From a virus, in the IMG/VR virus record IMGVR_UViG_3300009034_000126, positions 1 through 35,922 of that record: 35,922 bases of DNA; one strand, 5' to 3'. The position numbers and the translations under genes were made by a program. The notes under the pieces are model-generated. The model saw only the letters and a list, made by a program, of their open reading frames with translations. It ran no database searches and was not told the DNA's origin. Positions 4,452-31,759 of this stretch are shown one piece after another (position 1 is the stretch's first letter; the number at the start of each line of letters is the position of its first letter).

Positions 4452-4787
4452 ATGAGTCTTTCTATCCGTCTTATTCCTGAACCTGTGCGGTCATTAGCTT
4501 TTGGCTCTATTGGCGTAGCTTATATGGGTATAGGAACCGCCATTACAAAGCCTGTTCGCATATTTCATCTGCAAAATCTTACTGATGCAAATCTTATGTT
4601 TTCATTTGGTGGGGTTGATGATCATGTTGCAATTCCAGCAGGTGGCTATTTGTTGATTGATGTAACCGCCAACAAATCAAATGAGCGTGGATTTTTTATT
4701 GGTGAAGGTGAACGTATATATGTGAAAAGAATAGGAACGCCAACAACTGGTTCTGTATATTTGTCCACTTTTTATGGCGCAGACTAG
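4452..4787 (+). CDS. Small fibre-module protein, paralogue of the 1370 gene (111 aa)
   Basis: ATG at 4452 follows AGGATGTTTA. It aligns along its whole length with the 107-aa product at 1370-1693: RSLAFGSIGVAYMGIGTAIT, NLTDANLMFSF, GGYLLIDVTANKSNERGFFIGE, YVKRIGTPTTGSVYLSTFYG. It sits 9 bases before a large NGGTG fibre gene, as its paralogue does, so the two-gene unit was duplicated together. It is probably a small beta-rich virion protein acting with the following fibre. No catalytic motif is visible. Confidence 0.75.
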   Translation: MSLSIRLIPEPVRSLAFGSIGVAYMGIGTAITKPVRIFHLQNLTDANLMFSFGGVDDHVAIPAGGYLLIDVTANKSNERGFFIGEGERIYVKRIGTPTTGSVYLSTFYGAD

Positions 4788-23942: not shown

Positions 23943-23961
23943 AAATAGATCCTTTTTTAGG

Positions 23962-24007
23962 TCCCGCAAAGGGCTTTTCTCCTATGTTGTCCTTTTGTGG
24001 GATTTTT
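23962..24007 (+). terminator. Rho-independent terminator between scaffold and capsid genes
   Basis: TCCCGCAAAGGG (23962-23973) pairs with CCTTTTGTGGGA (23991-24002) over 12 bp with two G-T pairs and a 17-nt loop, followed by TTTTT (24003-24007). It ends the portal-scaffold transcript just before the capsid promoter. Confidence 0.82.
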
Positions 24008-24008
24008 C

Positions 24009-24038
24009 TTGATCCAAGTTTAATTTTTCTATTATAGT
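24009..24038 (+). promoter_or_regulatory. Predicted promoter of the major capsid gene
   Basis: TTGATC (24009-24014) and TATAGT (24033-24038) are 18 bases apart. The -10 matches consensus in five of six positions. A start 6-8 bases downstream would place the 5' end of the mRNA just before the first hairpin unit at 24047, so the hairpin array would be the leader of the capsid transcript. Confidence 0.6.
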
Positions 24039-24046
24039 GATCGTGA

Positions 24047-24212
24047 GCGTATCGGGATCTCGCTCGTCCCAGGCGTATGGAGTCTCGCCAGCTCGGGCGT
24101 ATTGGACCTCGCCAGTCCAGGCGTATTGAGTTTCGCCAACTCAAGACGTATGGAGGCCTCGTCAGCCTAGGTTTGTGTGCATTTTTTCTGAATGCGCATA
24201 TACCGTGGTATA
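24047..24212 (+). ncRNA. Tandem hairpin array in the leader of the major capsid gene
   Basis: Five units, each starting with (G)CGTAT, begin at 24047, 24073, 24097, 24121 and 24146. Each holds a hairpin with a 7-nt loop (CTCGCTC, CTCGCCA, CTCGCCA, TTCGCCA, CTCGTCA). Stems differ but always pair: GGGAT/GTCCC, GAGT/GCTC, TGGAC/GTCCA, TTGAGT/ACTCAA, AGGC/GCCT. Linkers contain GGCG, complementary to CGCC in the loops of units 2-4, so pseudoknots are possible. A sixth hairpin (TGTGCATT with AATGCGCA, 24176-24198) and a seventh (TATACC-GT-GGTATA, 24199-24212) follow. Changed but complementary stems with conserved loops indicate selection on RNA or single-stranded DNA structure. The role is unknown; the position suggests control of capsid mRNA stability or translation. 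Confidence 0.72.
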
Positions 24213-24241
24213 CATAAATCAAAACATTTTTAGGATGTGAT

Positions 24242-25189
24242 ATGGCAATCACAACGACTTCGGTGCTCCCTGCGCCGGTGCAGCAAAGCTTTAGCTATAA
24301 GCTGCTATCGGTGCCAGTACCAAACATGATCCATAAAATCCCTGCCATGCTCCAAAGAATGCCACGTAACGGTGGCACAACTTTGCGTATGCGTAGATAC
24401 AATCCTCTTGCAACAGCAATGGTTCCTTTAGGAAATTCTGGAATTACTCCTCCAGCACAAACACTTACAGCTGTTGATATCGATGCAAAAATGGATTTCT
24501 ATGGCACTTATGTGCAATTGAATGAGCAAGTAACATTACAAAACCAAGATCCTGTTCTTAATGAATCTACAAGGCGCCTTGGTGTTTCTCTACGTCAAAC
24601 AGAAGATCAACTCACAAGAGATATGCTCGCAGCAACTGCATCATTTATTAACTGCACTGGTGGTGTAAATGGAGATAATCCAACTGAAATCTCTAGAGCA
24701 GATGTTGATGTTATTGTAAGAACATTGCTTTCAAATGATGCATATACCGTTCTTGATAACATCGAAGGCGAAGATAAATTTGGAACGGCTCCTGTTAGAG
24801 ATGCGTATTTTGGACTTTGTTCAACAGATCTTACGGGAGATCTTGATCTTGTAACTGGCTTCATTCAAAAAAACCAATATCCATCACCAATGAATGCATT
24901 GCGTTCTGAGTGGGGTGCCATTGGAAACTTGAGGTTTCTAATTTCATCGATTGGTTCTGTAACTCCAAATGCTTCTAACCTAGGCGCAGATGTTTATAAC
25001 ATCTTCTGTGTTGGTATGGAGGCATATGCATGTGTAGAACAAGATGGATATAGCGCACAGTTTATTTACCGACCACCAATATATGATAGTCCACTTGCTT
25101 TGAATGCAACTGTTGGTTATAAATTCGCAGAAGTTCCACGTATAACGAACGATCTGTGGGTTGTTAATCTGCGTGCAACTCTTGCTTAA
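24242..25189 (+). CDS. Major capsid protein, N4-gp56 family (315 aa)
   Basis: ATG 24242 follows TAGGATGTGAT. The protein resembles the N4-gp56 family: PAMLQRMPRNGGTTLRMRRYNPLATAMVPLGNSG near residues 37-70, the FYGTYVQLNEQVTLQNQDPVLNESTRRLG block (about 85-115), an acidic helix QTEDQLTRDMLAATASFINC, and late strands YGAEAYACVEQDGYSAQ-like and TVGYKFAEVPRITNDLWVVNLR. This HK97-fold protein forms the icosahedral shell. Its gene has a private promoter, a structured leader and a terminator upstream, consistent with very high late expression. Confidence 0.88.
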   Translation: MAITTTSVLPAPVQQSFSYKLLSVPVPNMIHKIPAMLQRMPRNGGTTLRMRRYNPLATAMVPLGNSGITPPAQTLTAVDIDAKMDFYGTYVQLNEQVTLQNQDPVLNESTRRLGVSLRQTEDQLTRDMLAATASFINCTGGVNGDNPTEISRADVDVIVRTLLSNDAYTVLDNIEGEDKFGTAPVRDAYFGLCSTDLTGDLDLVTGFIQKNQYPSPMNALRSEWGAIGNLRFLISSIGSVTPNASNLGADVYNIFCVGMEAYACVEQDGYSAQFIYRPPIYDSPLALNATVGYKFAEVPRITNDLWVVNLRATLA

Positions 25190-31219: not shown

Positions 31220-31759
31220 TTATTGTTTAATATATTCAAGAACGATATATGTTGTTGTATAAGCGGCTTTATTATCTCCAGTCGTGACAACAACATTCGT
31301 ATTATCAGCATACACTTTTACATTTTCAGTTAGCGTTGGAGATGAATATGGCAATGGAATATATACAAGGCCGCTTGTATCTGATGCACATCCGTAAATC
31401 CTCGTAAATGTAAAATTAGCATCCGTCGCAATTCCATGAGCTACAGATTTTGTTGTTGCATTAGGAAGCGCCCCGAAATTTATAACTTTTCTAAATACTT
31501 GCCTATAAGTAGGCGTTTGTGCTGTTGTAGAAGATAAACTTGGATTTGGAAAATAAACTTGTCCATTTACAAACTCTTCTTGTACATAATATCCGGCATC
31601 TCTAATATTTAGCGAGTTTGCTATATCGTTTACTGTTTGATAAAGCCGTATAAATAATTCACGAAATTCAGGACTTTTTACATCAACCGTTTTGATATCA
31701 AAAATATCTGTTGTTGGGATAAATGCGCCTGGTCCAATATCAGACGGATAACTAGACAT
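31220..31759 (-). CDS. Virion-type protein on the opposite strand (179 aa)
   Basis: ATG at 31759 follows AAAAAGGAGCTAC on the minus strand. After an N-terminal helical region (SPEFRELFIRLYQTVNDIANSLNIRDAGYYVQEEFVNGQVYF) comes a beta-rich domain: QVFRKVINFGALPNATTKSVAHGI, FTFTRIYGCASD, YIPLPYSSPTLTENVKVYADNTNVVVTTGDNKAAYTTTYIVLEYIKQ. I recall this C-terminal pattern from phage fibre or virion proteins. It is the only late-type gene on the minus strand and has its own terminator, so it is probably a separately acquired, separately regulated gene. No enzymatic motif is seen. Confidence 0.75.
   Translation of the reverse strand: MSSYPSDIGPGAFIPTTDIFDIKTVDVKSPEFRELFIRLYQTVNDIANSLNIRDAGYYVQEEFVNGQVYFPNPSLSSTTAQTPTYRQVFRKVINFGALPNATTKSVAHGIATDANFTFTRIYGCASDTSGLVYIPLPYSSPTLTENVKVYADNTNVVVTTGDNKAAYTTTYIVLEYIKQ

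Follow-up and report, generated by a model that had tools for sequence, protein, structure and literature searches.

The capsid gene leader and the units of its array

The window (the whole stretch of DNA analysed here, a 35.9-kb virus record) derives from an uncultured tailed phage and encodes a 315 amino acid major capsid protein (MCP) at positions 24242-25189 of the plus strand (phrog_1357, E 3e-30; Pfam PF25209, E 8e-7). The leader of this gene, approximately 200 nt in length, lies downstream of an intrinsic terminator for the transcript of the preceding scaffold gene (23959-24005, plus strand), consisting of the stem UCCCGCAAAGG/CCUUUUGUGGGA followed by UUUUUC (fold of -20.1 kcal/mol, z -3.6), and of a sigma-70-like promoter retrieved in a consensus scan (24009-24038, plus strand; TTGATC and TATAGT spaced by 18 nt). 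Both elements are located directly upstream of an array of repeated units, as an earlier sequence-only reading had claimed, and appear to set apart a separate capsid transcript. A gap of 6 nt separates the -10 hexamer from the first unit, which is also the most common distance in relatives, hence transcription should start 7 nt after the hexamer, at about position 24045, the first base of that unit; the promoter consensus thereby agrees with the earlier prediction that the array stands at the capsid transcript start. Between the array and the start codon are a simple hairpin, TGTGCATT/AATGCGCA (24176-24198, plus strand), which is present in the minimum free energy (MFE) fold, and a smaller one, TATAC-CGTG-GTATA (24199-24212, plus strand), followed by a Shine-Dalgarno (SD) region, TAGGAT (24231-24236, plus strand).

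The array had been described as a series of hairpins with changing stems, a constant linker (GGCG) and a constant loop (CGCC). Five consecutive units were indeed confirmed at 24045-24168, but they are better described as pseudoknots formed within each unit, given that the linker and loop, taken to be unpaired, are complementary to one another in every unit (GAGCG:CGCTC, GGCG:CGCC three times, and GACG:CGTC) and so constitute the two strands of a second helix. The resulting order, S1a-L1-S2a-L2-S1b-L3-S2b, is that of an H-type pseudoknot, with UAU, CU and A as the respective loops in the window. Written in this order on the plus strand, unit 1, which begins at the predicted +1, is GAGCG/TATC/GGGAT/CT/CGCTC/-/GTCCC (24045-24070; no L3), unit 2 is GGCG/TATG/GAGT/CT/CGCC/A/GCTC (24072-24094), unit 3 is GGCG/TAT/TGGAC/CT/CGCC/A/GTCCA (24096-24119), unit 4 is GGCG/TAT/TGAGT/TT/CGCC/A/ACTCA (24120-24144) and unit 5, the last, is GACG/TATGG/AGGC/CT/CGTC/A/GCCT (24145-24168), the S1 of which (GACG) is the commonest among last units. 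The general formula is S1a-YA-S2a-NU-S1b-A-S2b, of about 24 nt, the units in the window being 23-26 nt.

When both strands of the window were scanned, a single cluster of at least three units was retrieved, at this array, with none in the shuffled window, and five canonical units were found at the array and none elsewhere, relative to an expectation of 0.18 per shuffled genome strand; chance is therefore excluded as the source of the array. Nested folding gave a z-score of -2.87, with pairs formed across units, and was rejected as a description of the design, as the MFE fold joins different units and cannot show crossing helices. Pairing of loops with the linkers of neighbouring units, also part of the earlier description, may still occur, since adjacent S1 helices resemble one another more than expected at random (0.405 vs 0.28), but it is the pairing within units that is conserved. 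The same similarity of neighbours rules out selection for S1 helices that do not cross-pair.

Conservation and covariation in related phages

Relatives were retrieved through an MCP search of IMG/VR, which returned about 600 related stretches, of which the best 80 were kept; the best 80 loci were likewise taken from each IMG/VR scan. Clade 2 was reached via an MCP of 64% identity and clade 3 via an MCP about 40% identical to that of the window. The expectation that the same array would precede the capsid gene in relatives was borne out across three clades, with MCP identities down to ~40%, and the same design was found before the coat gene in well over 100 distinct related viruses, at 2-5 units per array. 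Pseudoknot-like matches per leader averaged 1.97 in clade 1, 2.51 in clade 2 and 0.96 in clade 3, relative to 0.36-0.44 in shuffles.

Complementarity was assessed in 105 non-redundant leaders of clades 1 and 2, with units chosen by sequence anchors such that pairing was not required. All tested pairs of both helices were complementary far above swapped partners, for instance 0.887 vs 0.668 +/- 0.018 at the second pair of S1, and 0.911 vs 0.658 +/- 0.018 at the third pair of S2. Fifty units were aligned without gaps, at fixed loop lengths, under the structure ((((....[[[[..)))).]]]]. In this alignment 87.3% of cells were paired (68.1 +/- 1.2 when shuffled), and pairs changed on both sides were present in both helices. 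The covariation score was 0.540, relative to 0.202 +/- 0.018 in shuffles (reached in none of 500) and at most 0.169 in slid versions of the alignment; shuffle tests can be inflated by relatedness, but the slid controls retain that relatedness, and the two clades use many different stems. The earlier claim of selection for structure thus holds for two crossing helices, both of which covary. Leaders of clade 3 often begin with a flipped subtype, in which CGC...GCG replaces GCG...CGC, and S2 of this subtype was also found to covary (0.754 vs 0.482 +/- 0.026).

Two crossing helices per unit are accordingly a well supported structure as judged from these alignments. We infer that both helices form simultaneously, though two alternating hairpins per unit in place of one pseudoknot would also fit.

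Several leaders carried variations on the basic unit. In leaders L092, L100 and L105, some units hold an extra small hairpin (of the TAGCT..AGCTA type) inside L1, with both pseudoknot helices kept. Clade 3 leaders (L242-L320, e.g. L255 and L271) are more elaborate, in that a longer stem, GATATGATCG...CGATCATCATATC, encloses the last unit. Leader L037 has three near-identical units (GGCTGTATCGCCCCATCGCCAGGGCA) with one compensatory change in S2, from GCCC:GGGC to GTCC:GGAC, which suggests a recent tandem duplication.

Position of the array and candidate roles

In 34 leaders the -10 box ends 4-7 nt upstream of the first unit, with a sharp mode at 6, and a -10 box was located no more than 14 nt before the first unit in 46% of leaders (9.6% expected). 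Scans of 17 near-complete genomes, comprising the window and 16 relatives, retrieved arrays of at least three units only before the MCP gene, with the exception of one cluster in G004 that was chance-like and without the canonical letters, a shuffled genome having also given one cluster. Isolated canonical units elsewhere in the genomes were at about the chance level, and no second arrays were found elsewhere in these 17 genomes. The sequence-only reading had also raised the possibility of transcription solely as part of a gene on the opposite strand. This was rejected, as a 107 amino acid reverse open reading frame was not conserved and the antisense strand was open across the array in 41 of 73 leaders, no more often than the sense strand (42 of 73). 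Action on the sense strand is supported by the promoter, SD and gene context.

A position directly at a late transcript start, where the array would be structured at once on emergence, recalls the putL site of phage HK022, which lies just downstream of PL (PMC9378689), and the nascent array could conceivably bind RNA polymerase and confer resistance to pausing and terminators in the late operon. HK022 putRNA is, however, two simple stem-loops of about 70 nt that serves early genes by acting on RNA polymerase (PMC9378689), in contrast to five pseudoknots over 124 nt here. A single array also stands before one gene only, and the SD link of the last unit described below would not be expected of such an antiterminator, which we regard as improbable.

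Tandem pseudoknot repeats upstream of a gene are a hallmark of type III antitoxin RNAs such as ToxI and CptI (PMC4627078), which raises the possibility of a trans-acting decoy that titrates a host RNase or toxin. The repeats of ToxI and CptI are 36-45 nt and are cut by the neighbouring toxin, whereas the units of the array are 23-26 nt with strongly differing stems and the next gene encodes the MCP. No toxin gene adjoins the array, and no toxin family, ToxN-like or otherwise, was identified among the open reading frames scanned against Pfam and PADLOC. Furthermore, 68 of 73 leaders lack a terminator between the array and the gene; a terminator-like site between the array and the start codon was present in the other five, which do not include the window. 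A decoy of this kind is therefore very improbable, and the stand-alone small RNA envisaged previously is likewise disfavoured. The suggestion of a packaging signal found no support.

The previous statement that no described element has this design was upheld in that the whole window gave no gathering-threshold matches to Rfam 15, which points to a new RNA control element, and literature searches on tandem pseudoknots in phage leaders returned nothing on this element. Tandem pseudoknots are nonetheless known from STAXI (RF01728; PMC2864571), the closest architecture, which has two and usually three of them in the order S1a-S2a-S1b-S2b, the array likewise having at least two units. STAXI units differ from those of the array in sequence and size: they span about 48 nt, a UUCG hairpin replaces L3, and the motifs CCAAUG and CUGAGA are conserved. 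Their setting is also different, namely Enterobacteriales and the vicinity of ssb, topoisomerase, antirestriction and integrase genes, whereas the array precedes the MCP gene on contigs binned with Chlamydiota. With a cutoff of E<=10, the STAXI covariance model (threshold 40.5 bits) matched neither the window region and genome nor any of six relatives. A true STAXI example (L240), located through published primer sequences after none was found in the F plasmid stretch scanned, scored 134 bits as a positive control. As its architecture is known but its placement and unit are new, we class the array as a new RNA family within an already known general kind.

As has been discussed for STAXI, the element might instead act as single-stranded DNA in replication or packaging. 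Counts of G.U against A.C pairs, used as a strand test, do not single out an RNA (23:13, p 0.13, in one count and 24:22 in another), but the strict link to the promoter start and the capsid gene, and to the SD in some members of the family, renders a DNA element the most improbable of the alternatives.

That link to the SD was evident for the last unit only. Its S2b together with the next four bases was complementary to the SD region (z 6.6 relative to swapped controls), whilst the first and penultimate units were not above swapped controls (z 1.1 and 0.6, respectively), and compensatory changes were found among the last-unit/SD pairs (CTTAAG..CTTAAGG, CTTGAAG..TTTCAAG, CTTAGA..TCTAAG and CCTGGA..TTCAGG). 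Folding predicted a pair probability above 0.5 between S2b and the SD in 31 of 72 leaders (~43%). In the window, the SD can pair with the end of unit 5 (CCTAGG:TTTAGG), but weakly, with a pair probability of about 0, and this pairing is not predicted to win; being weak here and predicted in fewer than half of the relatives, a switch-like SD link is a trait of part of the family.

Taken as a whole, the array may be a cis-acting leader of the MCP mRNA, in which 2-5 miniature H-type pseudoknots beginning at +1 would both cap the transcript against decay and tune its translation, a leader function that we infer from sequence and hold at about even probability; the antiterminator and decoy roles are less likely. 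RppH and RNase E require single-stranded 5' ends, and mRNA is stabilised by structure at its 5' end (PMC3997798), such that a first knot placed at +1 could hide the 5' end and block 5'-end-dependent decay of the RppH/RNase E or RNase J type. The following knots would hold the leader compact, and the last knot, directly preceding the ribosome-binding site, is in a position to affect the binding of ribosomes; in many relatives its S2b would be shared with a helix covering part of the SD, and its folding or unfolding, perhaps through a bound phage or host protein, might then set capsid translation. The 5'-terminal stabilising stem-loops of the ompA and papA type similarly have a paired 5' end with predicted protection from 5'-dependent decay, but are simple hairpins rather than repeated pseudoknots. 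Decay protection alone does not account for arrays of 2-5 units or for conserved letters in the loops, as one hairpin would be enough for a 5' end.

The YA of L1, the U before S1b and the A of L3 stay fixed while the stems change, suggesting recognition of every unit by a single partner. This observation also fits an autogenous operator, in which the capsid, scaffold or another phage protein would bind the knots cooperatively and shut off capsid translation. Several units would suit cooperative binding, the array occurs only before the capsid gene and part of the family has the SD link. There is also a precedent in T4 gene 32, where a single leader pseudoknot is used for autoregulation (PMC3014915); like the array, the gene 32 leaders of T4, T2 and RB69 place a pseudoknot ahead of the ribosome-binding site for an abundant phage protein, but they have one knot and an A+U-rich stretch, at a different gene. 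Against such an operator, no protein family follows the presence and absence of the array, and the array-negative G025 encodes an MCP 79-80% identical to that of the window. Autogenous repression by a virion protein is thus somewhat unlikely, though no other alternative is as strong, and it is compatible with a cap role of the leader.

The comparison of array-positive with array-negative genomes identified no partner gene. Three candidates, at 31220-31759, 1370-1693 and 4452-4787, were present in 20/20 array-positive and 0/4 array-negative genomes by BLAST, but were rejected as relatives were found at the HMM level in array-negative genomes. The first of these, a minus-strand gene surrounded by late genes on the plus strand, encodes a 179 amino acid protein that is conserved in 20/20 array-positive genomes and has no Pfam match.

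A more specific form of the cis-acting leader would be a protein-read switch, in which occupancy of the knot chain from +1 sets whether the last knot or the SD takes the shared strand and so meters capsid synthesis, the array then being an RNA family new to science and carried by tailed phages that infect environmental Chlamydiota; in this full form the proposal is doubtful. The array would be a widespread RNA family absent from Rfam, placing a repeated knot in the leaders of a major virion gene in an abundant group of uncultured phages. Its unit, which covaries strongly and occurs in tandem, is among natural pseudoknots a very small one, and the array could be used to study how 5' ends are protected, how capsid dose is controlled and how tandem knots are recognised.

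Distribution, likely hosts and insertions in the capsid gene

Mapped on the MCP tree, the distribution of the array requires three changes, which would fit a single gain and two losses; long branches make the position of clade 3 uncertain. In the array-negative relatives G025, G192, G244 and G151, the MCP gene lies close behind the preceding gene. INPHARED contained no MCP above 27% identity, and the cultured phages with MCPs of <28% had, in the records checked, no array and mostly short gaps between the scaffold and MCP genes.

Of 234 Chlamydiota genomes, 8 contained related MCPs (39-80% identity), in several cases on contigs of 35-41 kb, relative to one close match in 274 genomes of the class of G029, which makes chlamydiae the likely hosts on the sole basis of binning. 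The phage-sized contigs (35-41 kb) in Chlamydiota metagenome-assembled genomes include G025:C102, G119:C388, G151:C19, G171:C2 and G192:C1, suggesting that they are tailed phages of environmental chlamydiae; no paper describing a tailed phage of chlamydiae was found in the literature searched.

The capsid gene of several relatives was broken by intron-like insertions, with up to three per gene, as in G119, where the MCP is in four pieces. These insertions were located at G119:C388:35794-38568, G028:C368:3821-5895 and G171:C2:26406-28294, and upstream of the MCP match in L110, L118, L122, L130 and L080. They gave no Rfam gathering-level match in the five loci scanned, and resemble group I intron ends by sequence. 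In another instance, the terminase of G014 (C1:2233-4398) matched as two segments separated by about 800 nt in a 731 amino acid open frame, the pattern that an intein or in-frame insert would give.
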